From Salvelinus alpinus (Eukaryota > Chordata > Actinopteri > Salmoniformes > Salmonidae), in assembly GCF_045679555.1 (NCBI RefSeq), contig NC_092091.1:73570027-73634026 (forward strand): DNA of 64,000 bases. Direction: 5' to 3'. Position 1 is the first letter of the stretch. The number at the start of each line of letters is the position of its first letter. This document shows, piece by piece, positions 14,721-63,967 of this stretch. Position numbers and translations under genes: made by a program. The notes beneath the pieces are model-generated. The model had not been told where the DNA came from. It made no database searches and saw only the letters and a program-made list of their open reading frames with translations.

Positions 14721-14794
14721 GGCCTTTGACAACTTTAACAATGCCTGGGTTTTTCTTTCTATGTAGGTCTACTATACATTAAGTCTCTGCTTCT

Positions 14795-16067: not shown

Positions 16068-17275
16068 CTACAGGGTTAAAAACAGTCAGATATCATTGTT
16101 AATACCAGTACCTACAGGGTTAACAACAGTCAGATATCATGGTTAATACCAGTACCTACAGGGTTAACAACAGTCAGATAGCATGGTTAATACCAGTATC
16201 TACAGGGTTAAAAACAGTCAGATATCATGGTTAATGCCAGTACCTACTGGGTTAAAAACAGTTAGATATCATGGTTAATACTAGTACCTACAGGGTTAAA
16301 CACAGTCAGATATCATGGTTAATACCAGTACCTACAGGGTTAACAACAGTCAGATATCATGGTTAATACCAGTACCTACAGGGTTAAACACAGTCAGATA
16401 TCATTGTTAATACCAGTACCTACAGGGTTAAACACAGTCAGATATCCTGGTTAATACCAGTACCTACAGGGTTAACAACAGTTAGATATCATGGTTAATA
16501 CCAGTACATACAGGGTTAACAACAGGTAGATATCATGGTTAATACCAGTGCATACAGGGTTAAAAACAGTCAGATATCATGGTTAATACCAGTACCTACA
16601 GGGTTAAAACAGTCAGATATCGTGGTTAATACCAGTACCTACAGGGTTAAAAACAGTCAGATATCATTGTTAATACCAGTACCTACAGGGTTAATAACAG
16701 TCAGATATCATGGTTAATACCAGTACCTACAGGGATAACAACAGGTAGATATCATGGTTAATACCAGTGCCTACAGGGTTAAAAACAGTCAGATATCATG
16801 GTTAATACCAGTACCTACAGGGTTAAAAACAGTCAGATATCATGGTTAATACCAGTACCTACAGGGTTAAAAACAGTCAGATATCATGGTTAATACCAGT
16901 ACCTACAGGGTTAACAACAGTCAGCTATCATGGTTAATACCAGTTCCTACAGGGTTAAAAACAGTCAGATATCATGGTTAATACCAGTACCTACAGGGTT
17001 AAAAACAGTCAGATATCATGGTTAATACCAGTACCTACAGGGTTAAAAACAGTCAGATATCATGGTTAATACCAGTACCTACAGGGTTAACAACAGTCAG
17101 CTATCATGGTTAATACCAGTTCCTACAGGGTTAAAAACAGTCAGATATCATGGTTAATACCAGTACCTACAGGGTTAAAAACAGTCAGATATCATGGTTA
17201 ATACCAGTACCTACAGGGTTAAAAACAGTCAGATATCATGGTTAATACCAGCACCTACAGGGTTAATAATAGTTA
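16068..17275 (-). repeat. 44-bp minisatellite, about 27 copies, minus orientation
   Basis: This is the complement of the array at 5238-8712 (plus-strand unit CAGTACCTACAGGGTTAAAA, ACAGTCAGATATCATGGTTA, ATAC). It directly abuts the splice acceptor of the lectin exon at 15920-16067, so the unit nearest the exon is the real junction. Absent from unit B, where this part is deleted. Confidence 0.95.
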
Positions 17276-17503
17276 GTTAACATGGTTAACATGTTGGTAC
17301 TTTATTGCCCTATTCTAAAATGTATTAAATACAAATTTTTTACAAAATGTATTAAATAAAAAACCATAATGACGAAGCGAAAACAGGTTTTTAGAAATAT
17401 TTGTAAATGTATTGAAAATAAAAACAGAAATACTTTATTTACATAAGTATTCAGACCCTTTTTCTATGAGACCCGAATTTGAGCTCAGGTGAGTCCTGTT
17501 CAC

Positions 17504-38050: not shown

Positions 38051-39345
38051 GAAAAGCTGTGGACAGGATAATGTGAACAGGAACATAGATAAACAACCTG
38101 AATCTCAGAACACTGGTAAATACACCGTAGTCATAGAGACACACACATGGAAGTGTAAACCAATAGTTATTATTCTTCCAATTGCCGCATAAACAATTTA
38201 CCTCATGTTAATGTGATGAGGTTGGCTGATGCCCCATGCTCCAAGGCTTCAAAAGTAAACTGAGTAAAATAAACTGTAACAAACAGATTATTAATATTCA
38301 AAAGCAGAATACAATGTGTCTTCCAAATGAAGGTACCTTACTTCACAAGGAATACTTTTGAAATGACGTACTTATGGAAATGAATACATAAAATGCTAAA
38401 TACTACAGCTCCTAAATGAAAGGTTGTTCCTTTAAGACTAGAAGTTAAATGTTCTGAAATGATGTCTTCTAACTGCAGAAACATACATTATTATGTTCAT
38501 AAAGTCCTACGTAACTCGCAACTGTGTATTTCCAACCTGGTCTCAGAGCATTTCGTATTATACTGTACGTAAATCTGAGACACACCATTTAGTATGACAT
38601 GTTACCTTTCATATGGTATGTGTCAATTTGTGGATAAGCATCATCCAAATTGTTTCATATGTTACGAATTACAATGTGTATGATATGTTACAAATTACAA
38701 TGTGTATGATATGTTACGAATTAGCAAAACGTACAATGTGTTATGAATTTGCTAAACATATAATATGTCCTGAATTCTACTAACATTAGCTAAATGGCTA
38801 ACGTTAGCAAGGCTAGGGGTTAACTGTAACTGGTCACTATATTTCCTGTTAATGTGTGAAGCTGTATCTTTAACAACCACAAGTCCCCGTCAACAGGAAG
38901 AGAGATGGGGTGAGAAAACACCACTTTAAATACAGCTATTCTTCCTCCATTTACAGATGATACAACAGAGATGCTTCATACTTTGGGATTATATGAGGCG
39001 AATTATATTTTACACTTAAGTCAAATTTAGACAGTCATTGATGGCAATGGGAGACTAAATTAAACTTTGAATTAAAGGGTTACTTCAGGATTTTGGCCCT
39101 TTATCTACTTCCCCAGAGACAGATGAGCTTATGGATAACATTTTTATGACTGTATCCAGTATGAAGGAAGTTAGAGGTAGTTTTGTGAGCCAATGCTAAC
39201 TACAGGTAGCCTGATGACTGGAGGTGAATGGCAAGCTAGCAGATACCCAGGAAATCAGCTCCTATTGATTTCATTTTGGAAATCTGTTCTCAAGTATAAT
39301 AGATAGACAACCACCAATGTAAGCAAGGATTGAAAATATTAAGTT
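38051..39345. other. Non-coding stretch with AT-rich interspersed repeat
   Basis: Matches 3980-5237 in unit A; the interspersed repeat is at 38530-38820. No gene seen. Confidence 0.5.
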
Positions 39346-40857
39346 ATCTGACTGTTTTTAACCCTGTAAGTGCTGGTATTAACCATGACATCTGACTGTT
39401 TTTAACCCTGTAGGTACTGGTATTAACCATGATATCTGACTGTTTTTAACCCTGTAGGTACTGGTATTAACCATGATATCTGACTGTTTTTAACCCTGTA
39501 GGTACTGGTATTAACCATGATATCTGACTGTTTTTAACCCTGTAGGTACTGGTATTAACCATGATATCTGACTGTTTTTAACCCTGTAGGTACTGGTATT
39601 AACCATGACATCTGACTGTTTTTAACCCTGTAGGTACTGGTATTAACCATGATATCTGACTGTTTTTAACCCTGTAGGTACTGGTATTAACCATGATATC
39701 TGACTGTTATTAACCCTGTAGGTACTGGTATTAACCATGATATCTGACTGTTTTTAACCCTGTAGGTACTGGTATTAACCATGATATCTGACTGTTATTA
39801 ACCCTGTAGGTACTGGTATTAACCATGATATCTGACTGTTTTTAACCCTGTAGGTTCTGGTATTAAACATGATATCTGACTGTTATTAACCCTGTAGGTA
39901 CTGGTATTAACCATGATATCTGACTGTTATTAACCCTGTAGGTACTGGTATTAACCATGATATCTGACTGTGTTTAACCCTGTAGGTACTGGTATTAACC
40001 ATGATATCTGACTGTTTTTAACCCTGTAGGTACTGGTATTAACCATGATATCTGACTGTTGTTAACCCTGTAGGTACTGGTATTAACCATGATATCTGAC
40101 TGTTTTTAACCCTGTAGGTACTGGTATTAACCATGAAATCTGACTGTTTTTAACCCTGTAGGTACTGGTATTAACCATGATATCTGACTGTTGTTAACCC
40201 TGTAGGTACTGGTATTAACCATGATATCTGACTGTTTTTAACCCTGTAGGTACTGGTATTAACCATGATATCTGACTGTTTTAACCCTGTAGGTACTGGT
40301 ATTAATCATGATATCTGACTGTTTTAAACCCTGTATGTACTGGTATTAACCATGAAATCGGACTGTTGTTAACCCTGTAGGTACTGGTATTAACCATGAT
40401 ATCTGTGTTAGTAACCCTGTAGGTACTGGTATTAACTATGATATCTGACTGTTATTAACCCTGTAGGTGCTGGTATTAACCAGGATATCTGACTGTTTTT
40501 AACCCTGTAGGTACTGGTATTAACCATGATATCTGACTGTTGTTAACCCTGTAGGTACTGGTATTAACCATGATATCTGACTGTTTTTAACCCTGTATGT
40601 ACTGGTATTAACCATGATATCTGACTGTTTTTAACCCTGTAGGTACTGGTATTAACCATGACATCAAACTGTTTTTAACCCTGTAGGTACTGGTATTAAC
40701 CATGATATCTGACTGTTATTAACCCTGTAGGTACTGGTATTAACCATGATATCTGACTGTTGTTAACCCTGTAGGTACTGGTATTAAGCATGATATCTGA
40801 CTGTTTTTAACCCTGTAGGTACTGGTATTAAGCATGATATCTGACTGTTTTTAACCC
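39346..40857 (+). repeat. 44-bp minisatellite, about 34 copies, plus orientation (unit B)
   Basis: Same unit as 5238-8712 and uninterrupted here. Each copy carries CCCTGTAG|GTACTGGTAT on the plus strand. No lectin exon follows. Confidence 0.95.
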
Positions 40858-42134: not shown

Positions 42135-42294
42135 TTACAACGCTTTCTCACAAATCCAGTTGAGTTTCCTGTCACATGACAAGTCGTTCCATGCCTCTAG
42201 AGAACTCTGTTCATTACGTATCTCAACACAGTCCTCCTTACCATATTCTGGTTTGCCAGCACCATTATCAGCCTGATGTGGTGTAGACCGGTAC
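42135..42294 (-). pseudogene. C-type lectin final exon (orphan copy, open frame, unit B)
   Basis: Same 160-bp exon as 9973-10132, again open over 53 codons with HQADNG, EDCVEIRNEQ, EAWNDLSC and NWICEKAL. It differs by only a few substitutions. QAD replaces the usual QPD. One 44-bp acceptor unit precedes it. Both copies staying open could be chance (short exon, recent duplication) or could mean the exon is still used by a transcript whose other exons were not found. Confidence 0.8.
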
Positions 42295-42931: not shown

Positions 42932-43302
42932 GACTGTTAGACTGACCACTCTATCAGAACCTAGAGTATGAACAACACATAGTTAGACTGACCTCTCTCT
43001 CAGAACCTAGAGTATGAACCACACTTAGTCACACTGACCTCTCTCTCAGAACCTAGAGTATGAACAACACAGAGTTAGACTGACCATTCTCTCAGAACCT
43101 AGAGTATGAACAACACAGAGTTAGACTGACCTCTCTCTCAGAACCTAGAGTATGAACAACACAGAGTTAGACTGACCTCTCTCTCAGAACCTAGAGTATG
43201 AACAACACAGAGTTAGACTGAACTCTCTCTCAGAACCTAGAGTATGAACAACACAGAGTTAGACTGACCTCTCTCTCAGAACCTAGAGTATGAACAACAA
43301 AG
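42932..43302 (-). repeat. 46-bp minisatellite, about 8 copies (unit B)
   Basis: Same unit and position as 12730-13225. Confidence 0.95.
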
Positions 43303-43321
43303 AAAATCAGTCCAACTACTT

Positions 43322-46300
43322 CAACTGTGGTCAATCTTATTATAGCAGTAGTCTCTTACCTTGGGGTGGTCAGTGTTATTATAGAGCAGTAGTATCTTAC
43401 CTTGGGGTGGTCAGTGTTATTATAGAGCAGTAGTCTCTTACCTTGGGGTGGTCAGTGTTATTATAGAGCAGTAGTCTCTTACCTTGGGGTGGTCAGTGTT
43501 ATTATAGAGCAGTAGACTCTTACCTTGGGGTGGTCAGTGTTATTATAGAGCAGTAGACTCTTACCTTGGGATGGTCAGTGTTATTAGAGCAGTAGTCTCT
43601 TACCTTGGGGTGGTCAGTGTTATTATAGAGCAGTAGTCTCTTACCTTGGGGTGGTCAGTGTTATTAGAGCAGTAGTCTCTTACCTTGGGGGGTCAGTGAT
43701 ATTATAGAGCAGTAGTCTCTTACCTTGGGGTGGTCAGTGTTATTATAGAGCAGTAGTCTCTTACCTTGGGGTGGTCAGTGTTATTATAGAGCAGTAGTCT
43801 CTTACCTTGGGGTGGTCAGTGTTATTATAGAGCAGTAGACTCTTACCTTGGGGTGGTCAGTGTTATTATAGAGCAGTAGACTCTTACCTTGGGATGGTCA
43901 GTGTTAATATAGAGCAGTAGTCTATTACCTTGGGGTGGTCAGTGTTATTATAGAGCAGTAGTCTCTTACCTTGGGGTGGTCAGTGTTATTATAGAGCAGT
44001 AGTCTCTTACCTTGGGGGGTCAGTGATATTATAGAGCAGTAGTCTCTTACCTTAGGGGGTCAGTGATATTATAGAGCAGTAGTATCTTACCTTGGTGTGG
44101 TCAGTGTTATTATAGCAGTAGTCTCTTACCTTGGGGTGGTCAGTGTTATTAGAGCAGTAGTCTCTTACCTTGGGGGGTCAGTGATATTATAGAGCAGTAG
44201 TCTCTTACCTTGGGGGGTCAGTGATATTATAGAGCAGTAGTCTCTTACCTTGGTGTGGTCAGTGTTATTATAGCAGTAGTCTCTTACCTTGGGGTGGTCA
44301 GTGTTATTATAGAGCAGTAGTCTCTTACCTTGGAGTAGTCAGTGTTATTATAGAACAGTAGTCTCTTACATTGGGGTGGTCAGTGTTATTAGAGCAGTAG
44401 TCTCTTACCTTGGAGTGGTCAGTGTTATTATAGAGCAGTAGTCTCTTACCTTGGGGTGGTCAGTGTTATTAGAGCAGTAGTCTCTTACCTTGGTGTGGTC
44501 AGTGTTATAATAGCAGTAGTCTCTTACCTTGGGGTGGTCAGTGTTATTAGAGCAGTAGTCTCTTACCTTGGGGGGTCAGTGATATTATAGAGCAGTAGTC
44601 TCTTACCTTGGGGTGGTCAGTGTTATTATAGAGCAGTAGTCTCTTACCTTGGGGTGGTCAGTGTTATTATAGAGCAGTAGTCTCTTACCTTGGGGTGGTC
44701 AGTGTTATTATAGAGCAGTAGACTCTTACCTTGGGGTGGTCAGTGTTATTATAGAGCAGTAGTCTATTACCTTGGGGTGGTCAATGTTATTATAGAGCAG
44801 TAGTCTCTTACCTTGGGGTGGTCCGTGTTATTATAGAGCAGTAGTCTCTTACCTTGGGGTGGTCAGTGTTATTATAGAGCAGTAGTCTCTTACCTTGGGG
44901 TGGTCAGTGTTAATATAGAGCAGTAGTCTATTACCTTGGGGTGGTCAGTGTTATTATAGAGCAGTAGTCTCTTACCTTGGGGTGGTCAGTGTTATTAGAG
45001 CAGTAGTCTCTTACCTTGGGGGGTCAGTGATATTATAGAGCAGTAGTCTCTTACCTTGGGGGGTCAGTGATATTATAGAGCAGTAGTCTCTTACCTTGGT
45101 GTGGTCAGTGTTATTATAGCAGTAGTCTCTTACCTTGGGGTGGTCAGTGTTATTATAGAGCAGTAGTCTCTTACCTTGGAGTAGTCAGTGTTATTATAGA
45201 ACAGTAGTCTCTTACATTGGGGTGGTCAGTGTTATTAGAGCAGTAGTCTCTTACCTTGGAGTGGTCAGTGTTATTATAGAGCTTTAGTCTCTTACCTTGG
45301 GGTGGTCAGTGTTATTAGAGCAGTAGTCTCTTACCTTGGTGTGGTCAGTGTTATAATAGCAGTAGTCTCTTACCTTGGGGTGGTCAGTGTTATTAGAGCA
45401 GTAGTCTCTTACCTTGGGTGGTCAGTGATATTATAGAGCAGTAGTCTCTTACCTTGGGGGGTCAGTGATATTATAGAGCAGTAGTCTCTTACCTTGGTGT
45501 GGTCAGTGTTATTATAGCAGTAGTCTCTTACCTTGGGGTGGTCAGTGTTATTATAGAGCAGTAGTCTCTTACCTTGGGGTGGTCAGTGTTATTATAGATC
45601 AGTAGTCACTTACCTTGGGGTGGTCAGTGTTATTATAGAGCAGTAGTCTCTTACCTTGGGGGGTCAGTGATATTATAGAGCAGTAGTCTCTTACCTTAGG
45701 GGGTCAGTGATATTATAGAGCAGTAGTATCTTACCTTGGTGTGGTCAGTGTTATTATAGCAATAGTCTCTTACCTTGGGGTGGTCAGTGTTATTATAGCA
45801 GTAGTCTCTTACCTTGGGGTGGTCAGTGTTATTATAGAGCAGTAGTCTCTTACCTTGGGGTGGTCAGTGTTATTATAGAGCAGTAGTCTCTTACCTTGGG
45901 GTGGTCAGTGTTATTATAGAGCAGTAGTCTCTTACCTTGGGGTGGTCAGTGTTATTATAGAGCAGTAGACTCTTACCTTGGGGTGGTCAGTGTTATTATA
46001 GAGCAGTAGACTCTTACCTTGGGATGGTCAGTGTTATTAGAGCAGTAGTCTCTTACCTTGGGGTGGTCAGTGTTATTATAGAGCAGTAGTCTCTTACCTT
46101 GGGGTGGTCAGTGTTATTAGAGCAGTAGTCTCTTACCTTGGGGGGTCAGTGATATTATAGAGCAGTAGTCTCTTACCTTGGGGTGGTCAGTGTTATTATA
46201 GAGCAGTAGTCTCTTACCTTGGGGTGGTCTGTGTTATTATAGAGCAGTAGTCTCTTACCTTGGGGTGGTCAGTGTTATTATAGAGCAGTAGACTCTTACC

Positions 46301-49300
46301 TTGGGGTGGTCAGTGTTATTATAGAGCAGTAGACTCTTACCTTGGGATGGTCAGTGTTATTAGAGCAGTAGTCTCTTACCTTGGGGTGGTCAGTGTTATT
46401 ATAGAGCAGTAGTCTATTACCCTGGGGTGGTCAATGTTATTATAGAGCAGTAGTCTCTTACCTTGGGGTGGTCTGTGTTATTATAGAGCAGTAGTCTCTT
46501 ACCTTGGGGTGGTCAGTGTTATTATAGAGCAGTAGTCTCTTACCTTGGGGTGGTCAGTGTTAATATAGAGCAGTAGTCTATTACCTTGGGGTGGTCAGTG
46601 TTATTATAGAGCAGTAGTCTCTTACCTTGGGGTGGTCAGTGTTATTATAGAGCAGTAGTCTCTTACCTTGGGGGGTCAGTGATATTATAGAGCAGTAGTC
46701 TCTTACCTTAGGGGGTCAGTGATATTATAGAGCAGTAGTATCTTACCTTGGTGTGGTCAGTGTTATTATAGCAGTAGTCTCTTACCTTGGGGTGGTCAGT
46801 GTTATTAGAGCAGTAGTCTCTTACCTTGGGGGGTCAGTGATATTATAGAGCAGTAGTCTCTTACCTTGGGGGGTCAGTGATATTATAGAGCAGTAGTCTC
46901 TTACCTTGGTGTGGTCAGTGTTATTATAGCAGTAGTCTCTTACCTTGGGGTGGTCAGTGTTATTATAGAGCAGTAGTCTCTTACCTTGGAGTGGTCAGTG
47001 TTATTATAGATCAGTAGTCACTTACCTTGGGATGATCAGTGTTATTATAGAGCAGTAGTCTCTTACCTTGGAGTAGTCAGTGTTATTATAGAACAGTAGT
47101 CTCTTACATTGGGGTGGTCAGTGTTATTAGAGCAGTAGTCTCTTACCTTGGAGTGATCAGTGTTATTATAGAGCAGTAGTCTCTTACCTTGGGGTGGTCA
47201 GTGTTATTAGAGCAGTAGTCTCTTACCTTGGTGTGGTCAGTGTTATAATAGCAGTAGTCTCTTACCTTGGGGTGGTCAGTGTTATTAGAGCAGTAGTCTC
47301 TTACCTTGGGGGGTCAGTGATATTATAGAGCAGTAGTCTCTTACCTTGGGGGGTCAGTGATATTATAGAGCAGTAGTCTCTTACCTTGGTGTGGTCAGTG
47401 TTATTATAGCAGTAGTCTCTTACCTTGGGGTGGTCAGTGTTATTATAGAGCAGTAGTCTCTTACCTTGGGGTGGTCAGTGTTATTATAGATCAGTAGTCA
47501 CTTACCTTGGGGTGGTCAGTGTTATTATAGAGCAGTAGTCTCTTACCTTGGGGGGTCAGTGATATTATAGAGCAGTAGTCTCTTACCTTAGGGGGTCAGT
47601 GATATTATAGAGCAGTAGTATCTTACCTTGGTGTGGTCAGTGTTATTATAGCAATAGTCTCTTTCCTTGGGGTGGTCAGTGTTATTATAGCAGTAGTCTC
47701 TTACCTTGGGGTGGTCAGTGTTATTATAGAGCAGTAGTCTCTTACCTTGGGGTGGTCAGTGTTATTATAGATCAGTAGTCACTTACCTTGGGGTGGTCAG
47801 TGTTATTATAGAGCAGTAGTCTCTTACCTTGGGGTGGTCAGTGTTATTATAGAGCAGTAGTCTCTTACCTTGGGGTGGTCAGTGTTATTATAGAGCAGTA
47901 GTCTCTTACCTTGGGGTGGTCAGTGTTATTATAGAGCAGTAGACTCTTACCTTGGGATGGTCAGTGTTATTAGAGCAGTAGTCTCTTACCTTGGGGTGGT
48001 CAGTGTTATTATAGAGCAGTAGTCTCTTACCTTGGGGTGGTCAGTGTTATTAGAGCAGTAGTCTCTTACCTTGGGGGGTCAGTGATATTATAGAGCAGTA
48101 GTCTCTTACCTTGGGGTGGTCAGTGTTATTATAGAGCAGTAGTCTCTTACCTTGGGGTGGTCAGTGTTATTATAGAGCAGTAGTCTCTTACCTTGGGGTG
48201 GTCAGTGTTATTATAGAGCAGTAGACTCTTACCTTGGGGTGGTCGGTGTTATTTTAGAGCAGTAGACTCTTACCTTGGGATGGTCAGTGTTATTAGAGCA
48301 GTAGTCTCTTACCTTGGGGTGGTCAGTGTTATTATAGAGCAGTAGTCTATTACCCTGGGGTGGTCAATGTTATTATAGAGCAGTAGTCTCTTACCTTGGG
48401 GTGGTCTGTGTTATTATAGAGCAGTAGTCTCTTACCTTGGGGTGGTCAGTGTTATTATAGAGCAGTAGTCTCTTACCTTGGGGTGGTCAGTGTTAATATA
48501 GAGCAGTAGTCTATTACCTTGGGGTGGTCAGTGTTATTATAGAGCAGTAGTATCTTACCTTGGGGTGGTCAGTGTTATTATAGAGCAGTAGTCTCTTACC
48601 TTGGGGGGTCAGTGATATTATAGAGCAGTAGTCTCTTACCTTAGGGGGTCAGTGATATTATAGAGCAGTAGTATCTTACCTTGGTGTGGTCAGTGTTATT
48701 ATAGCAGTAGTCTCTTACCTTGGGGTGGTCAGTGTTATTAGAGCAGTAGTCTCTTACCTTGGGGGGTCAGTGATATTATAGAGCAGTAGTCTCTTACCTT
48801 GGGGGGTCAGTGATATTATAGAGCAGTAGTCTCTTACCTTGGTGTGGTCAGTGTTATTATAGCAGTAGTCTCTTACCTTGGGGTGGTCAGTGTTATTATA
48901 GAGCAGTAGTCTCTTACCTTGGGGTGGTCAGTGTTATTATAGATCAGTAGTCACTTACCTTGGGATGATCAGTGTTATTATAGAGCAGTAGTCTCTTACC
49001 TTGGAGTAGTCAGTGTTATTATAGAACAGTAGTCTCTTACATTGGGGTGGTCAGTGTTATTAGAGCAGTAGTCTCTTACCTTGGAGTGATCAGTGTTATT
49101 ATAGAGCAGTAGTCTCTTACCTTGGGGTGGTCAGTGTTATTAGAGCAGTAGTCTCTTACCTTGGTGTGGTCAGTGTTATAATAGCAGTAGTCTCTTACCT
49201 TGGGGTGGTCAGTGTTATTAGAGCAGTAGTCTCTTACCTTGGGGGGTCAGTGATATTATAGAGCAGTAGTCTCTTACCTTGGGGGGTCAGTGATATTATA

Positions 49301-52300
49301 GAGCAGTAGTCTCTTACCTTGGTGTGGTCAGTGTTATTATAGCAGTAGTCTCTTACCTTGGGGTGGTCAGTGTTATTATAGAGCAGTAGTCTCTTACCTT
49401 GGGGTGGTCAGTGTTATTATAGATCAGTAGTCACTTACCTTGGGGTGGTCAGTGTTATTATAGAGCAGTAGTCTCTTACCTTGGGGGGTCAGTGATATTA
49501 TAGAGCAGTAGTCTCTTACCTTAGGGGGTCAGTGATATTATAGAGCAGTAGTATCTTACCTTGGTGTGGTCAGTGTTATTATAGCAATAGTCTCTTACCT
49601 TGGGGTGGTCAGTGTTATTATAGCAGTAGTCTCTTACCTTGGGGTGGTCAGTGTTATTATAGAGCAGTAGTCTCTTACCTTGGGGTGGTCAGTGTTATTA
49701 TAGATCAGTAGTCACTTACCTTGGGATGGTCAGTGTTATTATAGAGCAGTAGTCTCTTACCTTGGAGTAGTCAGTGTTATTATAGAACAGTAGTCTCTTA
49801 CATTGGGGTGGTCAGTGTTATTAGAGCAGTAGTCTCTTACCTTGGAGTGGTCAGTGTTATTATAGAGCAGTAGTCTCTTACCTTGGGGGGTCAGTGATAT
49901 TATAGAGCAGTAGTCTCTTACCTTGGTGTGGTCAGTGTTATTATAGCAGTAGTCTCTTACCTTGGGGTGGTCAGTGTTATTATAGAGCAGTAGTCTCTTA
50001 CCTTGGGGTGGTCAGTGTTATTATAGATCAGTAGTCACTTACCTTGGGATGATCAGTGTTATTATAGAGCAGTAGTCTCTTACCTTGGAGTAGTCAGTGT
50101 TATTATAGAACAGTAGTCTCTTACATTGGGGTGGTCAGTGTTATTAGAGCAGTAGTCTCTTACCTTGGAGTGATCAGTGTTATTATAGAGCAGTAGTCTC
50201 TTACCTTGGGGTGGTCAGTGTTATTAGAGCAGTAGTCTCTTACCTTGGTGTGGTCAGTGTTATAATAGCAGTAGTCTCTTACCTTGGGGTGGTCAGTGTT
50301 ATTAGAGCAGTAGTCTCTTACCTTGGGGGGTCAGTGATATTATAGAGCAGTAGTCTCTTACCTTGGGGGGTCAGTGATATTATAGAGCAGTAGTCTCTTA
50401 CCTTGGTGTGGTCAGTGTTATTATAGCAGTAGTCTCTTACCTTGGGGTGGTCAGTGTTATTATAGAGCAGTAGTCTCTTACCTTGGGGTGGTCAGTGTTA
50501 TTATAGATCAGTAGTCACTTACCTTGGGGTGGTCAGTGTTATTATAGAGCAGTAGTCTCTTACCTTGGGGGGTCAGTGATATTATAGAGCAGTAGTCTCT
50601 TACCTTAGGGGGTCAGTGATATTATAGAGCAGTAGTATCTTACCTTGGTGTGGTCAGTGTTATTATAGCAATAGTCTCTTACCTTGGGGTGGTCAGTGTT
50701 ATTATAGCAGTAGTCTCTTACCTTGGGGTGGTCAGTGTTATTATAGAGCAGTAGTCTCTTACCTTGGGGTGGTCAGTGTTATTATAGATCAGTAGTCACT
50801 TACCTTGGGGTGGTCAGTGTTATTATAGAGCAGTAGTCTCTTACCTTGGAGTGGTCAGTGTTATTATAGAACAGTAGTCTCTTACATTGGGGTGGTCAGT
50901 GTTATTAGAGCAGTAGTCTCTTACCTTGGAGTGGTCAGTGTTATTATAGAGCAGTAGTCTCTTACCTTGGGGTGGTCAGTGTTATTAGAGCAGTAGTCTC
51001 TTACCTTGGTGTGGTCAGTGTTATAATATCAGTAGTCTCTTACCTTGGGGTGGTCAGTGTTATAATAGCAGTAGTCTCTTACCTTGGGGTGGTCAGTGTT
51101 ATTATAGAGCAGTAGTCTCTTACCTTGGGGTGGTCAGTGTTATTAGAGCAGTAGTCTCTTACCTTGGGGGGTCAGTGATATTATAGAGCAGTAGTCTCTT
51201 ACCTTGGTGTGGTCAGTGTTATTATAGCAGTAGTCTCTTACCTTGGGGTGGTCAGTGTTATTATAGAGCAGTAGTCTCTTACCTTGGGGTGGTCAGTGTT
51301 ATTATAGATCAGTAGTCACTTACCTTGGGATGATCAGTGTTATTATAGAGCAGTAGTCTCTTACCTTGGAGTAGTCAGTGTTATTATAGAGCAGTAGTCT
51401 CTTACCTTGGGGTGGTCAGTGTTATTAGAGCAGTAGTCTCTTACCTTGGTGTGGTCAGTGTTATAATAGCAGTAGTCTCTTACCTTGGGGTGGTCAGTGT
51501 TATTAGAGCAGTAGTCTCTTACCTTGTGGGGTCAGTGATATTATAGAGCAGTAGTCTCTTACCTTGGGGGGTCAGTGATATTATAGAGCAGTAGTCTCTT
51601 ACCTTGGTGTGGTCAGTGTTATTATAGCAGTAGTCTCTTACCTTGGGGTGGTCAGTGTTATTATAGATCAGTAGTCACTTACCTTGGGTCGGTCAGTGTT
51701 ATTATAGAGCAGTAGTCTCTTACCTTGGGGGGTCAGTGATATTATAGAGCAGTAGTCTCTTACCTTAGGGGGTCAGTGATATTATAGAGCAGTAGTATCT
51801 TACCTTGGTTTGGTCAGTGTTATTATAGCAATAGGCTCTTACCTTGGGGTGGTCAGTGTTATTAGAGCAGTAGTCTCTTACCTTGGGGTGGTCAGTGTTA
51901 TTATAGAGCAGTAGTCTCTTACCTTGGGGCGGTCAGTGATATTATAGAGCAGTAGTCTCTTACCTTGGTGGGGTCAGTGATATTATAGAGCAGTAGTCTC
52001 TTACCTTGGGGTGGTCAGTGTTATTATAGAGCAGTAGTCTCTTACCTTGGGGTGGTCAGTGTTATTATAGCAGTAGTCTCTTACCTTGGGGTGGTCAGTG
52101 TTATTATAGAGCAGTAGTCTCTTACCTTGGGGTGGTCAGTGATATTATAGAGCAGTAGTCTCTTACCTTGGGGTGGTCAGTGTTATTATAGAGCAGTAGT
52201 CTCTTACCTTGGAGTGGTCAGTGTTATTATAGAACAGTAGTCTCTTACATTGGGGTGGTCAGTGTTATTAGAGCAGTAGTCTCTTACCTTGGAGTGGTCA

Positions 52301-54356
52301 GTGTTATTATAGAGCAGTAGTCTCTTACCTTGGGGTGGTCAGTGTTATTAGAGCAGTAGTCTCTTACCTTGGTGTGGTCAGTGTTATAATATCAGTAGTC
52401 TCTTACCTTGGGGTGGTCAGTGTTATAATAGCAGTAGTCTCTTACCTTGGGGTGGTCAGTGTTATTATAGAGCAGTAGTCTCTTACCTTGGGGTGGTCAG
52501 TGTTATTATAGATCAGTAGTCACTTACCTTGGGGTGGTCAGTGTTATTATAGAGCAGTAGTCTCTTACATTGGGGTGGTCAGTGTTATTAGAGCAGTAGT
52601 CTCTTACCTTGGAGTGGTCAGTGTTATTATAGAGCAGTAGTCTCTTACCTTGGGGTGGTCAGTGTTATTATAGATCAGTAGTCACTTACCTTGGGATGAT
52701 CAGTGTTATTATAGAGCAGTAGTCTCTTACCTTGGAGTAGTCAGTGTTATTATAGAGCAGTAGTCTCTTACCTTGGGGTGGTCAGTGTTATTAGAGCAGT
52801 AGTCTCTTACCTTGGTGTGGTCAGTGTTATAATAGCAGTAGTCTCTTACCTTGGGGTGGTCAGTGTTATTAGAGCAGTAGTCTCTTACCTTGTGGGGTCA
52901 GTGATATTATAGAGCAGTAGTCTCTTACCTTGGGGGGTCAGTGATATTATAGAGCAGTAGTCTCTTACCTTGGTGTGGTCAGTGTTATTATAGCAGTAGT
53001 CTCTTACCTTGGGGTGGTCAGTGTTATTATAGATCAGTAGTCACTTACCTTGGGTCGGTCAGTGTTATTATAGAGCAGTAGTCTCTTACCTTGGGGGGTC
53101 AGTGATATTATAGAGCAGTAGTCTCTTACCTTAGGGGGTCAGTGATATTATAGAGCAGTAGTATCTTACCTTGGTTTGGTCAGTGTTATTATAGCAATAG
53201 GCTCTTACCTTGGGGTGGTCAGTGTTATTAGAGCAGTAGTCTCTTACCTTGGGGGGTCAGTGATATTATAGAGCAGTAGTCTCTTACCTTGGGGGGTCAG
53301 TGATATTATAGAGCAGTAGTCTCTTACCTTGGTGTGGTCAGTGTTATTATAGCAGTAGTCTCTTACCTTGGGGTGGTCAGTGTTATTATAGAGCAGTAGT
53401 CTCTTACCTTGGGGTGGTCAGTGTTATTATAGATCAGTAGTCACTTACCTTGGGGTGGTCAGTGTTATTATAGAGCAGTAGTCTCTTACATTGGGGTGGT
53501 CAGTGTTATTAGAGCAGTAGTCTCTTACCTTGGAGTGGTCAGTGTTATTATAGAGCAGTAGTCTCTTACCTTGGGGTGGTCAGTGTTATTAGAGCAGTAG
53601 TCTCTTACCTTGGAGTGGTCAGTGTTATTATAGAGCAGTAGTCTCTTACCTTGGGGTGGTCAGTGTTATTAGAGCAGTAGTCTCTTACCTTGGTGTGGTC
53701 AGTGTTATAATAGCAGTAGTCTCTTACCTTGGGGTGGTCAGTGTTATAATAGCAGTAGTCTCTTACCTTGGGGTGGTCAGTGTTATTATAGAGCAGTAGT
53801 CTCTTACCTTGGGGTGGTCAGTGTTATTAGAGCAGTAGTCTCTTACCTTGGGGGGTCAGTGATATTATAGAGCAGTAGTCTCTTACCTTGGGGTGGTCAG
53901 TGTTATTATAGAGCAGTAGTCTCTTACCTTGGGGTGGTCAGTGTTATTATAGATCAGTAGTCACTTACCTTGGGGTGGTCAGTGTTATTATAGAGCAGTA
54001 GTCTCTTACCTTGGAGTGGTCAGTGTTATTATAGAACAGTAGTCTCTTACATTGGGGTGGTCAGTGTTATTAGAGCAGTAGTCTCTTACCTTGGAGTGGT
54101 CAGTGTTATTATAGAGCAGTAGTCTCTTACCTTGGGGGGTCAGTGATATTATAGAGCAGTAGTCTCTTACCTTGGGGGGTCAGTGATATTATAGAGCAGT
54201 AGTCTCTTACCTTGGTGTGGTCAGTGTTATTATAGCAGTAGTCTCTTACCTTGGGGTGGTCAGTGTTATTATAGAGCAGTAGTCTCTTACCTTGGGGTGG
54301 TCAGTGTTATTATAGATCAGTAGTCACTTACCTTGGGGTGGTCAGTGTTATTATAG
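43322..54356 (-). repeat. 41-bp minisatellite, about 269 copies (unit B, main block)
   Basis: An 11-kb array of the unit described at 13254-14497, with 38-, 40- and 41-bp variants (for example TTATTAGAGC, TATTATAGCAG and GGGGGGTCAGTGATATT). Almost every unit keeps CTTACCTTGG, the complement of a 5' splice site. Variant order shows higher-order repeats: the marker GATCAGTAGTCACTTACC recurs at 47009, 47489 and 47770; then 48942, 49422 and 49703; then 50026, 50506 and 50787, always with 480- and 281-bp spacings. Confidence 0.97.
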
Positions 54357-54516
54357 ATTTTTACATTTACATTTAAGTCATTTAGCAGACGCTCTTATCC
54401 AGAGCGACTTACAAATTGGTGCATTCACCTTATGACATCCAGTGGAACAGCCACTTTACAATAGTGCATCTAAATCTTTTAAGGGGGGGGGGGGGGGTGA
54501 GAAGGATTACTTTATC

Positions 54517-56046
54517 CTATCCTAGGTATTCCTTAAAGAGGTGGGGTTTCAGGTGTCTCCGGAAGGTGGTGATTGACTCCGCTGTCCTGGCGTCGTGAGG
54601 GAGTTTGTTCCACCATTGGGGGGCCAGAGCAGCGAACAGTTTTGACTGGGCTGAGCGGGAACTGTACTTCCTCAGTGGTAGGGAGGCGAGCAGGCCAGAG
54701 GTGGATGAACGCAGTGCCCTTGTTTGGGTGTAGGGCCTGATCAGAGCCTGGAGGTACTGAGGTGCCGTTCCCCTCACAGCTCCGTAGGCAAGCACCATGG
54801 TCTTGTAGCGGATGCGAGCTTCAACTGGAAGCCAGTGGAGAGAGCGGAGGAGCGGGGTGACGTGAGAGAACTTGGGAAGGTTGAACACCAGACGGGCTGC
54901 GGCGTTCTGGATGAGTTGTAGGGGTTTAATGGCACAGGCAGGGAGCCCAGCCAACAGCGAGTTGCAGTAATCCAGACGGGAGATGACAAGTGCCTGGATT
55001 AGGACCTGCGCCGCTTCCTGTGTGAGGCAGGGTCGTACTCTGCGGATGTTGTAGAGCATGAACCTACAGGAACGGGCCACCGCCTTGATGTTAGTTGAGA
55101 ACGACAGGGTGTTGTCCAGGATCACGCCAAGGTTCTTAGCGCTCTGGGAGGAGGACACAATGGAGTTGTCAACCGTGATGGCGAGATCATGGAACGGGCA
55201 GTCCTTCCCCGGGAGGAAGAGCAGCTCCGTCTTGCCGAGGTTCAGCTTGAGGTGGTGATCCGTCATCCACACTGATATGTCTGCCAGACATGCAGAGATG
55301 CGATTCGCCACCTGGTCATCAGAAAGGGGAAAGGAGAAGATTAGTTGTGTGTCGTCTGCATAGCAATGATAGGAGAGACCATGTGAGGTTATGACAGAGC
55401 CAAGTGACTTGGTGTATAGCGAGAATAGGAGAGGGCCTAGAACAGAGCCCTGGGGGACACCAGTGGTGAGAGCACGTGGTGAGGAGACAGATTCTCGCCA
55501 CGCCACCTGGTAGGAGCGACCTGTCAGGTAGGACGCAATCCAAGCGTGGGCCGCGCCGGAGATGCCCAACTCGGAGAGGGTGGAGAGGAGGATCTGATGG
55601 TTCACAGTATCGAAGGCAGCCGATAGGTCTAGAAGGATGAGAGCAGAGGAGAGAGAGTTAGCTTTAGCAGTGCGGAGCGCCTCCGTGATACAGAGAAGAG
55701 CAGTCTCAGTTGAATGACTAGTCTTGAAACCTGACTGATTTGGATCAAGAAGGTCATTCTGAGAGAGATAGCGGGAGAGCTGGCCAAGGACGGCACGTTC
55801 AAGAGTTTTGGAGAGAAAAGAAAGAAGGGATACTGGTCTGTAGTTGTTGACATCGGAGGGATCGAGTGTAGGTTTTTTCAGAAGGGGTGCAACTCTCGCT
55901 CTCTTGAAGACGGAAGGGACGTAGCCAGCGGTCAGGGATGAGTTGATGAGCGAGGTGAGGTAAGGGAGAAGGTCTCCGGAAATGGTCTGGAGAAGAGAGG
56001 AGGGGATAGGGTCAAGCGGGCAGGTTGTTGGGCGGCCGGCCGTCAC
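54517..56046 (-). CDS. LINE reverse transcriptase (ORF2, C-terminal part)
   Basis: 509 codons, open. It carries the reverse-transcriptase order of blocks: NNYRPVSLLSFLSKTLER, NQSGFKTSHSTETALL, LILLDLSAAFDTVNH (first catalytic Asp), GVPQGSVLGPLLFSLY, YHCYADDTQL (YADD active site), KNLGVILDN and the C-terminal APQWWNKLPHDART. It copies the element's RNA at the target nick. The start at 56046 is only the first Met: the frame continues upstream to about 56215 (DDFVNHFEKKVDDIRSS) and was originally joined to the endonuclease ORF at 56088-57455. All key residues are present. Confidence 0.92.
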   Translation of the reverse strand: MTAGRPTTCPLDPIPSSLLQTISGDLLPYLTSLINSSLTAGYVPSVFKRARVAPLLKKPTLDPSDVNNYRPVSLLSFLSKTLERAVLGQLSRYLSQNDLLDPNQSGFKTSHSTETALLCITEALRTAKANSLSSALILLDLSAAFDTVNHQILLSTLSELGISGAAHAWIASYLTGRSYQVAWRESVSSPRALTTGVPQGSVLGPLLFSLYTKSLGSVITSHGLSYHCYADDTQLIFSFPLSDDQVANRISACLADISVWMTDHHLKLNLGKTELLFLPGKDCPFHDLAITVDNSIVSSSQSAKNLGVILDNTLSFSTNIKAVARSCRFMLYNIRRVRPCLTQEAAQVLIQALVISRLDYCNSLLAGLPACAIKPLQLIQNAAARLVFNLPKFSHVTPLLRSLHWLPVEARIRYKTMVLAYGAVRGTAPQYLQALIRPYTQTRALRSSTSGLLASLPLRKYSSRSAQSKLFAALAPQWWNKLPHDARTAESITTFRRHLKPHLFKEYLG

Positions 56047-56087
56047 AAGACGCGAGATTTCATCTGGAGAGAGAGGGGAGAAAGAGG

Positions 56088-57455
56088 TCAGAGCACAGGG
56101 TAGGGCAGTGTGAGCAGAACCAGCGGTGTCGTTTGACTTAGCAAACGAAGATCGGATGTCGTCGACCTTCTTTTCAAAATGGTTGACGAAGTCATCTGCA
56201 GAGAGGGAGGAGGGGGGGGAGGGGGAGGAGGATTCAGGAGGGAGGAGAAGGTGGCAAAGAGCTTCCTAGGGTTAGAGGCAGATGCTTGGAATTTAGAGTG
56301 GTAGAAAGTGGCTTTAGCAGCAGAGACAGAAGAGGAAAATGTAGAGAGGAGGGAGTGAAAGGATGCCAGGTCCGCAGGGAGGCGAGTTTTCCTCCATTTC
56401 CGCTCGGCTGCCCGGAGCCCTGTTCTGTGAGCTCGCAATGAGTCGTCGAGCCACGGAGCGGGAGGGGAGGACCGAGCCGGCCTGGAGGATAGGGGACATA
56501 GAGAGTCAAAGGATGCAGAAAGGGAGGAGAGGAGGGTTGAGGAGGCAGAATCAGGAGATAGGTTGGAGAAGGTTTGAGCAGAGGGAAGAGATGATAGGAT
56601 GGAAGAGGAGAGGGTAGCGGGGGAGAGAGAGCGAAGGTTGGGACGGCGCGATACCATCCGAGTAGGGGCAGTGTGGGAAGTGTTGGATGAGAGCGAGAGG
56701 GAAAAGGATACAAGGTAGTGGTCGGAGACTTGGAGGGGAGTTGCAATGAGGTTAGTGGAAGAACAGCATCTAGTAAAGATGAGGTCGAGCGTGTTGCCTG
56801 CCTTGTGAGTAGGGGGGGAAGGTGAGAGGGTGAGGTCAAAAGAGGAGAGGAGTGGAAAGAAGGAGGCAGAGAGGAATGAGTCAAAGGTAGACGTGGGGAG
56901 GTTAAAGTCGCCCAGAACTGTGAGAGGTGAGCCGTCCTCAGGAAAGGAGCTTATCAAGGCATCAAGCTCATTGATGAACTCTCCGAGGGAACCTGGAGGG
57001 CGATAAATGATAAGGATGTTAAGCTTGAAAGGGCTGGTAACTGTGACAGCATGGAATTCAAAGGAGGCGATAGACAGATGGGTAAGGGGAGAAAGAGAGA
57101 ATGACCACTTGGGAGAGATGAGGATCCCGGTGCCACCACCCCGCTGACCAGAAGCTCTCGGGGTGTGCGAGAACACGTGGGCGGACGAAGAGAGAGCAGT
57201 AGGAGTAGCAGTGTTATCTGTGGTGATCCATGTTTCCGTCAGTGCCAAGAAGTCGAGGGACTGGAGGGAGGCATAGGCTGAGATGAACTCTGCCTTGTTG
57301 GCCGCAGATCGGCAGTTCCAGAGGCTACCGGAGACCTGGAACTCCACGTGGGTCGTGCGCGCTGGGACCACCAGATTAGGGTGGCCGCGGCCACGCGGTG
57401 TGGAGCGTTTGTATGGTCTGTGCAGAGAGGAGAGAACAGGGATAGACAGACACAT
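56088..57455 (-). CDS. LINE apurinic-type endonuclease (ORF2, N-terminal part)
   Basis: 455 codons from ATG at 57453-57455. Endonuclease motifs in order: SLWNCRSAANKAEFI (Asn), LALTETWI (Glu), RGGGTGILIS, IYRPPGS, LGDFNLPT (Asp and Asn), NTLDLIFTR and SDHYLVS (Asp-His). This nuclease nicks target DNA for target-primed reverse transcription. The frame is lost at a G-rich tract (56211-56233, read as poly-Pro); the last 50 or so residues are out of frame relative to the reverse transcriptase. A single indel in that tract, real or a sequencing error, would explain the break. Confidence 0.9.
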   Translation of the reverse strand: MCLSIPVLSSLHRPYKRSTPRGRGHPNLVVPARTTHVEFQVSGSLWNCRSAANKAEFISAYASLQSLDFLALTETWITTDNTATPTALSSSAHVFSHTPRASGQRGGGTGILISPKWSFSLSPLTHLSIASFEFHAVTVTSPFKLNILIIYRPPGSLGEFINELDALISSFPEDGSPLTVLGDFNLPTSTFDSFLSASFFPLLSSFDLTLSPSPPTHKAGNTLDLIFTRCCSSTNLIATPLQVSDHYLVSFSLSLSSNTSHTAPTRMVSRRPNLRSLSPATLSSSILSSLPSAQTFSNLSPDSASSTLLSSLSASFDSLCPLSSRPARSSPPAPWLDDSLRAHRTGLRAAERKWRKTRLPADLASFHSLLSTFSSSVSAAKATFYHSKFQASASNPRKLFATFSSLLNPPPPPPPPPSLQMTSSTILKRRSTTSDLRLLSQTTPLVLLTLPYPVL

Positions 57456-57489
57456 AGTTGACAGGCTACAGAAGAGACTACGCTAATGC

Positions 57490-58255
57490 AAATGGAATGA
57501 CAAGTGGACTACGCGTCTCGAATGTTCAGAAAGTTAAGCTTACGTAGCAAGAATCTTATTGACTAAAATGATTAAGATGATACAGTACTGCTGAAGTAGG
57601 CTAGCTGGCAGTGGCTGCGTTGTTGACTTTGTAGGCTAGCTGGCAGTGGCTGCGTTGTTGACACTACACTAATCAAGTCGTTCCGTTGAGTGTAATAGTT
57701 TCTACAGTGCTGCTATTCGGGGGCTAGCTGGCTAGCTAGCAGTGTTGATTACGTTACGTTGCGTTAAAAGAACGACAATAGCTGGCTAGCTAACCTAGAA
57801 AATCGCTCTAGACTACACAATTATCTTTGATACAAAGACGGCTATGTAGCTAGCTATGTAGCTAGCTACGATCAAACAAATCAAACCGTTGTACTGTAAT
57901 GAAATGAAATGAAAATGTGATACTACCTGTGGAGCGAAGCGGAATGCGACCGGGTTGTTGAGTGCGGAAGTTCTATTCGGTAGACGTTGGCTAGCTGTTG
58001 GCTAGCTAGCAGTGTCTCCTACGTTAAGGACGACAAATAGCTGGCTAGCTAACCTCGGTAAATTAAGATAATCACTCTAAAACTACACACTCTAAACTAC
58101 ACGATTATCTTGGATACGAAGACAGCAAAGACAACTATGTAGCTAGCTAACACTACACTAATCAAGTCGTTCAGTTGAGTGTAATAGTTGCTACAGTGCT
58201 GCTATTCGGTAGACGGTGGACGTTTGCTAGCTGGCTAGCTGCTGGGCAGATAGCA
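57490..58255 (-). promoter_or_regulatory. LINE 5' region with irregular tandem units
   Basis: GGCTAGCTAGCAGTGT occurs at about 57728 and 57993, TAGCTGGCTAGCTAACCT about 250 bp apart (57778, 58028), and CTACACTAATCAAGTCGTTC at 57663 and 58150. A 36-bp piece, GGCTAGCTGGCAGTGGCTGC, is also doubled near 57600. Such 5' monomers can act as internal promoters in some LINEs; that role here is inference. Confidence 0.6.
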
Positions 58256-59192
58256 GTGTCTCTTACCTTGGAGTGGTCAGTGTTATTATAGAACAGTAGT
58301 CTCTTACATTGGGGTGGTCAGTGTTATTATAGAGCAGTAGTCTCTTACCTTGGGGTGGTCAATCTTATTATAGCAGTATTCTCTTACCTTGGGGTGGTCA
58401 ATCTTATTATAGCAGTAGTCTCTTACCTTGGGGTCGTCAGTGTTATTATAGAGCAGTAGTCTCTTACCTTGGGGTGGTCAATCTTATTATAGCAGTAGTC
58501 TCTTACCTTGGGGTCGTCAGTGTTATTATAGAGCAGTAGTCTCTTACCTTGGGGTGGTCAATCTTATTATAGCAGTAGTCTCTTTCCTTGGGGTCGCCAG
58601 TGTTATTATAGAGCAGTAGTCTCTTACCTTGGGGATGGTCAATCTTTTTATAGCAGTAGTCTCTTACCTTGGTGTGTTCAGTGTTATTATAGATCAGTAG
58701 TCTCTTACCTTGGGGTGGTCAGTGTTATTATAGAGCAGTAGTCTCTTACCTTGGGGTGGTCAGTGTTATTATAGAGCAGTAGACTCTTACCTTGGGGTTG
58801 TCAGTGTTATTATAGAGCAGTATTCTCTTACCTTGGGGTGGTCAGTGTTATTATAGAGCAGTAGTCTCTTACCTTGGGGTGGTCAATCTTATTATAGCAG
58901 TAGTCTCTTACCTTGGGGTCGTCAGTGTTATTATAGAGCAGTAGTCTCTTACCTTGGGGTGGTCAGTGTTATTATAGAGCAGTAGTCTCTTACCTTGGGG
59001 TGGTCAGTGTTATTATAGAGCGGTAGTCTCTTACCTTGGGGTGGTCAATCTTATTATAGCAGTAGTCTCTTACCTTGGGGTGCTCAATCTTATTATAGCA
59101 GTAGTCTCTTACCTTGGGATGGTCAGTGTTATTATAGAGCAGTAGTCTCTTACCTTGGGGTGGTCAGTGTTATTATAGAGCAGTATTATCTT
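58256..59192 (-). repeat. 41-bp minisatellite, about 23 copies (unit B, distal block)
   Basis: Continuation of 43322-54356 on the far side of the LINE. It directly abuts the cytoplasmic exon at 59195, whose donor resembles the unit. GGTCAATCTTATTATAGCAG variants match unit A's array better than the central block does. Confidence 0.95.
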
Positions 59193-59194
59193 AC

Positions 59195-59400
59195 CTTTTT
59201 GGTATGAATATGTGTGTGTTACCAGTCGCTGGTCTCCTGGTCCATTATTAGGAGCAGTGTCCTCTGTCTCTTCTCTCTTGGTGCTGGTCTCACCGTCTCT
59301 CAGGGTGTCTGCACTGACGTACATATATTAACAATCCTCTCCTCCATCTCACTTCTGTCCAAGTTGACTTTCTTGTTCATATTTGGCTCAGCATAGGTGA
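59195..59400 (-). pseudogene. C-type lectin cytoplasmic-tail exon, frameshifted (unit B)
   Basis: Minus strand reads YAEPNMNKKVNLDRSEM, EERIVNI, then after the two-base insertion shared with unit A, VSADTLRDGETSTKREE and THTYSYQK up to AAAAAG|GTAAGA at 59195. The start codon seen in unit A is not in frame here. It is a membrane-lectin tail exon that can no longer be translated through. Confidence 0.7.
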
Positions 59401-59472
59401 CCTTTGACATCTTTAACAATGCCTGGGTTTTTCTTTCTATGTAGGTCTACTATACATTAAGTCTCTGCTTCT

Positions 59473-62806: not shown

Positions 62807-63967
62807 TTATACCACTTTCTCACATATCCAGTCATGATGTGTTTTGCAATTTTCATCATTCCATGTCTTTACAGGGTCATATTGTCCATAGTATATCTCA
62901 ACACAGTCCTCTTGCCCATTATCATCAGGCTGTCCTCCCGTCCAGTACCTAAACAACACAGAGAACCAGACAATCAGACACTCTGGTACAAACATCCTCC
63001 TCAATTATACAAATAGTCCTACATTTTAAAGACACACTCTGTAAGATCATCATACCATTATCAAGAATGGACCATCAACACATTTCCATTACCTTTTCAT
63101 ATGTAAATCTTACCTGGTTTCTATAATACATCTATAGTTCTCTTCCATGACATTCATGAGTGGAAACATACCTTTTTATGAACATGATTGGAAGCAATAT
63201 ATCTTTGTTGTTTTTAATCTCCATATCACAAGGTAAAATGGTCAAATCTCTCACCCTGTCGTCAGTGGGGTGCCGTCCACCCACTTCCAGGTCCCCTCAG
63301 TAACAGAGTCATTCAGACCAATCCAGGCTCTCAGGTGGAGGTTGAAGAGAAATGTCTGTTGTGAGAAAGATAAAAACTGTCACTTTTAATATATTTATAA
63401 AATACTGCACACATATTAGTTTACTGATGAAAAGTATCACTCTCACTCACTCACTCACTCACTCACTCACTCACTCACTCACTCACTCACTCACTCACTC
63501 ACCTGTTCCTCTCTGCTGTTAATGATCACCAGGTCTGCTCCTCTCTCCAGACAGTCCTGTCTGCTCTCCTCCCAGGGTTTCTTCTCAGTAGAGAGGAAGT
63601 ACAAACTGGAGTCAAAGTATCTCCATCCCTCCTGACAATGCTGCTCTGTTGAAGAGCAAAGTTGAACATGTTGAGAAACTTAGTCAGTATCTTTATACTC
63701 ATAAACCCATTGATATATAATTACTGTTGATTTTACTTCTAATTTATCACAGTTATATCTCACCTATCACAAAAAGCTTTGCCTGAATATGGCCTTTCTC
63801 TTTAGTCAGGTTATTGTATCTGGTCTGTAGCTGGTCTCTCTCTTCAGTCAGGTTGTTGTATCTGGTCTGTAGTTGGTCTCTCTCTGCAGTTGCGTTGGTC
63901 TTATAAAGGGAAAAACTCTGTGACAAGTTGTTCCTTTTATCCTCAGAATCTTTGATGGCTCTGTTAT
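62807..63967 (-). CDS. C-type lectin receptor gene (CD209-like), 4 exons, 5' part outside window
   Basis: Exons on the minus strand: 63764-63967, 63503-63645, 63255-63355 and 62807-62948, all with AG acceptors and GT donors and matching phases; stop at 62807-62809. The first is a stalk with two 14-residue units (ERDQLQTRYNNLT), two heptads each, predicting a coiled coil that would oligomerise the receptor; NAT and NLT are possible N-glycosylation sites. The other three form a full C-type lectin domain: EQHCQEGWRYF, CLERGADLVIINSREEQ, AWIGLNDSVTEGTWKWVDG, RYWTGGQPDDNG and VKTWNDENC..DWICEK. QPD plus WND predicts calcium-dependent galactose-type binding. Type II receptor topology is inferred from the family; tail and anchor exons lie beyond 64000. 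No defect is visible. The symbol cannot be fixed from this part. Confidence 0.9.
63437..63502 (-). repeat. (GTGA)n microsatellite forming a lectin 5' splice site
   Basis: The plus strand shows about 16 CTCA/TCAC units directly next to the exon ending at 63503. On the minus strand the donor is CAG|GTGAGTGAGTGAG, so the splice site itself has expanded and many GTGAGT sites lie in series. Confidence 0.95.

Follow-up and report, generated by a model that had tools for sequence, protein, structure and literature searches.

The window, the 64-kb stretch of Salvelinus alpinus NC_092091.1 that was analysed, holds exons of C-type lectin genes together with tandem arrays of a 41-bp unit that carries a 5' splice site. 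The features are listed in Table 1. The initial annotation had estimated about 290 copies of this donor in array B and about 30 in array A, and both the tandem-repeat copy numbers (TRF) and motif counts agree with it: the minus strand has 30 GGTAAG in A, 277 in B (255 + 22) and only 5 in the window outside these two arrays, while GTAAG is present 289 times in B (266 + 23). The same annotation had array B running from 43322 to 59195. An array is indeed present there, but it is discontinuous, because a 3.9-kb element has its insertion point within a single 41-bp unit (..GAGACACTGCT before and CTATAATAAC.. after it) and splits the array into B1 and B2. We take the element to be LINE-like, its two frames being reverse-transcriptase-like and endonuclease-like by eye. 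The commonest donor 9-mer is AAG/GTAAGA (30 of 31 sites in A and 258 of 297 in B), and AAG/GTAAGT is found at 18 further sites in B. The match level of the 41-bp arrays given by TRF is 89-95%. With units arranged head to tail and a copy number from 1 to approximately 297 across paralogous loci, the arrays are minisatellites (VNTRs).

Table 1. Features of the window, with window positions; a slash in a motif marks an exon-intron boundary or its copy
Feature	Position	Strand	Remarks
41-bp donor array A	13254..14505	(-)	~31 units, CACTGACCACCCCAAG/GTAAGAGACTACTGCTCTATAATAA (TRF: 30.9 copies)
41-bp donor array B1	43327..54357	(-)	~274 units (TRF: 274.5 copies)
41-bp donor array B2	58252..59197	(-)	~23 units (TRF: 23.5); remainder of array B upstream of inserted element
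Inserted element, presumably LINE-like	54358..58251	(-), gene-sense strand	open frames of 582 and 464 codons
44-bp array, copied 3' splice site (..TTAACCCTGTAG/GTACTGGTAT)	16058..17289	(-)	28 units
Lectin-domain exon 3 (YWYDKQPDNAG..)	15929..16066	(-)	first bases copied in 44-bp array
44-bp acceptor-derived array	39345..40857	(+), opposite strand	34 units
44-bp acceptor-derived array	5238..6462	(+), opposite strand	28 units
44-bp acceptor-derived array	8284..8713	(+), opposite strand	9 units
46-bp array, probable copied 3' splice site (..CATACTCTAG/GTTCTGAGAG..)	12725..13223	(-)	11 units
46-bp array, second copy	42936..43303	(-)	8 units
Cytoplasmic exon of gene B and its 5' edge	59198..59447	(-)	frame shifted 2 bases vs L011
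Cytoplasmic exon of gene A	14506..14768	(-)	same 2-base frame shift; TTG for ATG, start codon lost vs B
Probable own donor of B cytoplasmic exon, CTG/GTAACAC	59222..59223	(-)	from alignment with L009
Lectin-domain exon 3 of gene B (extent of match)	42144..42275	(-)	
Lectin-domain exon 3 of gene A (extent of match)	9982..10113	(-)	
Lectin-domain exon 2 of neighbouring gene (extent of match)	63257..63325	(-)	donor differs (CTGACGACAGGGTGAG), no array

Source of the 41-bp unit

Arrays of the 41-bp unit were found at a minimum of 13 loci (A, B and L009-L019), all on a single chromosome (contig C6 of the 2.37-Gb genome). An 82-base query made of two units gave 183 matches, and among the matches listed all fall on C6 between 73.58 and 80.52 Mb; 19 of 20 candidates were scored in this search and part of the matches listed, and 13 loci is a lower bound. 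An exact 38-base pattern has 172 matches genome-wide, of which 86 lie in the window and the other 86 in eleven fetched 10-kb stretches. Each of the 13 loci holds lectin exons or fragments of them. The initial annotation had named the occurrence of the repeat at loci without lectin exons as the finding that would speak against it; this was not seen for any of the 172 exact copies, all of which lie near lectin exons or fragments in one chromosome region, and the pattern covers exact copies, so that diverged ones could escape it.

When the array borders were analyzed, the array was found flush with the end of the second C-type lectin-domain exon at L012-L019, i.e., at 8 of 13 loci. Because the array starts at the end of exon 2 at these loci, the 41-bp unit is made up of 16 coding bases from the end of exon 2 and 25 bases from the start of the following intron. 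The boundary ACCCCACTGACCACCCCAAG/GTAAGAGACTACTG is exact in L012, L016, L018 and L019, L013 and L015 have GTAAGACAC, L017 has CCGCAAG/GTAAGAGTC, and L014 reads CTGACAACCCCAAG and then AT where the others have the first GT. The 16 exon bases (CACTGACCACCCCAAG) are thus exact in six of the eight flush loci and carry one change each in L014 and L017; L013, L015 and L017 have one change each within the first 11 intron bases. A broken exon 2 precedes the array in L009, and L011 contains a whole exon 2 with a single donor plus a second, partial exon 2 with two donors, where its array lies. The units therefore carry a 5' splice site and the first of them overlaps an exon end at L012-L019 (with the first GT of L014 being AT), which makes this a splice-donor minisatellite derived from exon 2 of the C-type lectin domain. 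The identity of the domain was examined in the joined exons 2 and 3 of L018 and L013, which match Pfam PF00059 with E-values of 7.1e-26 (91.5 bits) and 7.6e-23 (81.7 bits), respectively (cut-off 22.6 bits); the joined domain of L018 also has sequence matches to many C-type lectins in PDB, including DC-SIGN and the macrophage mannose receptor.

The earlier proposal that the array is a copied exon-intron boundary is borne out, with a good 5' splice site in most units, but the source exon is a different one. The donor of the cytoplasmic exon had been named as the source, and the array adjoins that exon only in A, B and L010 (3 of 13 loci). The junctions described at 14503 and 59195 do exist as a donor flush with the array (AAAAAG/GTAAGATAATACTGC in A, B and L010), but this donor is probably not the authentic one of that exon. 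The cytoplasmic exon of L009 stands free of the array, and its own donor there, CACTCAG/GTAAAA, aligns with CTG/GTAACA in A, B and L010. The aligned donor, C(A or T)G/GTAA(A or C)AC, sits upstream of the array, in gene B probably 28 bases upstream of the first array donor (between 59195 and 59194); in L010 the exon itself is cut. It is extremely unlikely that the cytoplasmic donor was the true source and that the array spread from there to lectin-domain exon 2 at a later time: the flush AAAAAG junction speaks for it, but the cytoplasmic side has only AAG in common with the unit, whereas the last 16 coding bases of exon 2 are in the unit, and none of the fetched loci has an intact cytoplasmic exon next to an unexpanded source. 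We rejected the cytoplasmic exon as the source on the grounds of these 16 bases and of the upstream position of its own donor.

In genes A and B, tblastn (E 0.01) detected no lectin-domain exon 1 or 2, membrane exon or neck exon in the stretch from the cytoplasmic exon to exon 3, and the reading frame of the cytoplasmic exon in A, B and L009 does not match that of L011. We infer that in A, B and L010 a deletion joined the array to the intron of the cytoplasmic exon. Genes A and B look like dead genes in which the array is a relic. On the strand opposite to the other lectin exons of the window, diverged lectin-domain exons 2 and 3 are present at 29126-29571 (+). Three further stretches (18000-19000, 60700-61050 and 2-361) are presumably Tc1/mariner-like transposase remnants.

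Growth of the arrays and the acceptor side

The unexpanded exon 2 of L011 (CCACTGACCACCACAAG/GTAATACACTACTGCTCTAATAACACTAACCACAGTG) contains a near-perfect 10-base repeat, CACTGACCAC and CACTAACCAC, with one copy exonic and one intronic at a distance of 39 bases. The corresponding distance in L019 is 41 bases, and units of 39 bp and 41 bp are both common within the arrays. At 7 of 13 loci the last unit of the array ends exactly in CACTGACCAC/A; among the other six, A, B, L013 and L018 end in an altered seed repeat, while L009 and L011 differ. These sequence features suggest that the 10-bp direct repeat straddling the donor is the likely seed of the expansion. The exon-2 donor would lie between two copies of the repeat, one in the last exon bases and the other at about intron base 24-26, and slippage or unequal exchange between the copies may have multiplied the ~41-bp unit from one or two to approximately 300 copies.

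The loci form a ladder of copy number. Counted as core matches, the whole exon 2 of L011 has 1 donor and L019 has 2, followed by 9, 15, 16, 24, 27, 31 (A), 33, 43, 57, 87 and 297 (B). B1 has 40 unit types among its 273 full units, and a block of 23 units recurs in it at a lag of 27. Few unit types are in common between B1 and the other arrays: 3 of 13 in A, 4 of 15 in B2, 3 of 30 in L010, 5 of 44 in L017, 2 of 18 in L018 and 5 of 14 in L013. Array growth is local and recent, and the expansion probably took place largely independently in the different gene copies.

The 3' end of the matching intron appears to have been multiplied in the same manner, into arrays of 44-bp and 46-bp units. Read in gene sense, the 44-bp unit (..TAACCATGATATCTGACTGTTTTTAACCCTGTAG/GTACTGGTAT) consists of the exon-3 acceptor and the first ten coding bases, the latter being repeated exactly, and exon 3 directly adjoins such an array in L009, in L010 and at 16058-17289 of the window. 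Aligned locally to real exon-3 acceptors from the same subfamily (those of L009 and L010 plus a pair from the window), the unit gives best scores of 37-40, compared with shuffle maxima of 16-19. A 35-base piece of the unit has 124 exact genome matches, all on C6 among the matches listed. In the intron of gene B, ACTGGTAT occurs 43 bases ahead of a similar ACCGGTCT at exon 3, a possible 44-bp counterpart of the seed. The sequence matches argue firmly for the 44-bp arrays as copied acceptors of exon 3. The 46-bp array lies directly against exon 3 in L012 and L016-L019. Its unit scores 22-27 there vs. shuffle maxima of 16-20, although a large part of this may come from the last array unit itself. 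In an ungapped comparison at three loci, 16, 20 and 21 of the 25 bases of the intron part agree with the real acceptor; the exon part agrees with the exon at 11-12 of 21 bases in five loci, a level reached by 0.5-1.2% of shuffles. The 46-bp array is probably a copied acceptor as well. A lectin intron in which the donor, and in some copies the acceptor, has become a minisatellite is a larger phenomenon than the initial annotation had stated. L011 contains a further splice-site minisatellite of the lectin gene family at 1095-3055, an 85-bp array whose 23 units consist of the end of the membrane-spanning exon and its donor (GTGAGTATA), with GTGAGTA kept in 21 of 23.

Donor constraint, reading frame and donor choice

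GT is kept in 600 of 617 full units (12 arrays), and the predicted duplex with the U1 5' end has mean energies of -9.07 to -9.36 kcal/mol in six arrays (a perfect site gives -14.5). Variants per position were counted by wrap-around alignment with one main cluster per locus, L011 and L019 being left out and L013 being represented by 34 full units vs. 57 core matches. At the locus level the donor 9-mer has 4.3 variants per position vs. 7.0 elsewhere (5 of 41 circular windows, itself included, are as low or lower; permutation 0.035); among distinct units the figures are 6.2 vs. 10.1 (3 of 41 windows; permutation 0.055). An earlier count, biased in that units were located by the donor core, gave 0.0185 for nine random positions, and 5/41 and rank 3/41 for windows. 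This suggests that the donor bases are slightly less variable than the rest, so that weak constraint is possible, with no good sign of purposeful retention. Selection on the donor was considered as well, and the slight variant deficit was not counted as evidence for it.

The retained GT and the predicted duplexes would be expected if RNA from the minus strand of the array captured large amounts of U1 snRNP, as a sponge or as a guard against premature polyadenylation, and U1 telescripting exists as a process according to the accessible part of its literature. We consider this function very improbable: the largest array, B, is in a gene without lectin-domain exons 1-2, membrane or neck exons, the donor bases are hardly more conserved than the rest, and the introns of the seven loci tested below are short (0.6-4.8 kb), five of the seven being without AATAAA.

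Next, the reading-frame outcome was predicted for L012, L013 and L015-L019 by splicing exon 2 onto exon 3 in silico at each AAGGTA donor that precedes exon 3. L014 was left out (its first donor is AT, not GT), as were L009, L010, L011, A and B, where exon 2 is missing, broken or unexpanded. All seven tested loci contain the exon 2-3 intron. The first AAGGTA donor joins the two exons in frame and is predicted to read through the lectin domain at 7 of 7 loci. None of the 231 further donors does so (L012, 12; L013, 55; L015, 19; L016, 23; L017, 81; L018, 40; L019, 1). In all internal-donor examples printed the stop begins one base beyond the exon end, since the phase-2 donor GTAA then reads AGG-TAA. 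The stop thus follows automatically from a phase-2 GTAA donor and is no sign of design. With regard to the remaining exons, a motif scan of the 10 kb upstream of six of the seven loci found no convincing membrane, neck or cytoplasmic exons; neck exons are seen in L019 itself and in L012, and L019 also has a membrane exon. Repeats of 42 bp coding in frame for neck repeats (ERDQLQTSYNNLTK) are found at L011:7408-7945, L019:2649-2928 and L012:141-242, and presumably resemble the neck of DC-SIGN.

Exon definition would most likely pick the first, exon-flush donor, and the array would be removed with the intron. The cell may tolerate the array since exon definition is expected to prefer the donor that ends the real exon. 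Leaky use of internal donors would merely cost message, because the other donors insert an early stop. Where 5' splice sites compete, strong downstream copies might beat an upstream one, which is contrary to the assumed use of the first donor. Taking the sequence evidence together, we favour, with a probability of roughly 0.7, a splice-site minisatellite of one C-type lectin subfamily that arose by seeded slippage, grew largely separately at each locus and leaves the exon-flush donor in use, the array being passive. The array is then most likely a passenger that reflects neutral minisatellite growth.

The failure of 231 of 231 alternative AAGGTA donors to read through could also indicate poison splicing tuned by copy number, with internal donors leading to an early stop and decay, and array length setting the output of each lectin gene. 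Most array donors share the 9-mer of the first donor, the copy number ranges from 2 to 87 core matches among paralogues with open lectin-domain exons, and downstream repeat units of IFI6 serve as splice donors according to the accessible text of PMC4526556. This explanation is unlikely, however, in view of the donor bases being without clear constraint and of the automatic nature of the stop. Taken further, an intron with amplified donors and acceptors might be a copy-number rheostat, regulating each gene of an immune lectin cluster individually, a proposition that we consider quite doubtful. If it holds, the arrays would compete with the coding pair of splice sites, each array length would set the amount of surviving lectin message, and rapid minisatellite change would adjust each lectin gene on its own.

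AG/GT at every unit border raises the further possibility of stepwise or recursive splicing, in which each CCCCAAG/GTAAGA junction acts as both acceptor and donor and units are removed in multiples of ~41 bases. CTGAC and TAATAAC in each unit resemble branch points. AAG is a weak acceptor, however, and no long pyrimidine run precedes it, so that such splicing appears highly improbable, even though the accessible part of PMC4974935 describes a route to new introns by AGGT tandem duplication. The passive splice-site minisatellite remains our preferred reading. The paralogues offer a series with 2, 15, 24, 27, 43, 57 and 87 near-identical competing donors behind the same exon, with the first as the sole donor predicted to stay in frame. 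The choice among equal donors can therefore be measured directly in a vertebrate cell by ordinary RNA sequencing; a rule for equal competing donors is not settled by the accessible text of PMC8724738.

Relation to known splice-site repeats

The closest precedent, by analogy, would be the minisatellite of IFI6 (6-16, G1P3), which reportedly was described by Turri et al. in 1995 as having multiple splice donor sites. As far as the accessible part of PMC4526556 goes, two downstream repeat units of IFI6 serve as splice donors, and the likeness lies in a tandem repeat whose units carry splice donors. Unlike IFI6, the lectin unit is 41 bp long and includes 16 coding bases, reaches ~300 copies and occurs across a gene family; moreover, the other end of the lectin intron has acceptor arrays, and the internal lectin donors are predicted from sequence.

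In primate paralogues, internal tandem repeats at exon-intron boundaries (on average 30 bp x 4) may yield novel introns, according to the available portion of PMC2812944. The lectin arrays share with these, as described there, minisatellite expansion in recent duplicates, sometimes at exon-intron borders and with altered gene structure, but they multiply existing splice sites and leave the intron position unchanged. A similar comparison applies to the Rogers/Hellsten model, in which introns are gained via tandem duplication of AGGT segments (PMC4974935, accessible part). The lectin copies are in tandem with AG/GT at the unit border as in this model, but no new intron position was found: the array-free neighbouring gene also keeps the exon 2-3 intron (exons at 63325-63257 and 62947-62816), and the old lectin intron grows at its edges. 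Copied splice sites are not described in the accessible texts on fish myostatin-2 intron repeats (PMC3045353) or on earthworm metallothionein introns (PMC12783039). Lectin splice-site arrays were absent among the matches listed in the open-licence literature, which does not prove their absence from print. Exon-intron junctions can turn into minisatellites at donors and at acceptors, and introns can therefore grow from their edges in young gene families.

Two other groups of tandem repeats are present in the window. GC-rich repeats of 27/54/108 bp (GAGCCTCCAGCGACGATCTGCAGTCC) at 24387-24991 are possibly coding, and no relation to the lectin arrays was noticed. Both duplicates carry a 56-bp array in the same strand orientation, with 38 copies at 31650-33794 and 4 copies at 562-802, and the larger of the two displays a strong skew of G over C on the plus strand.
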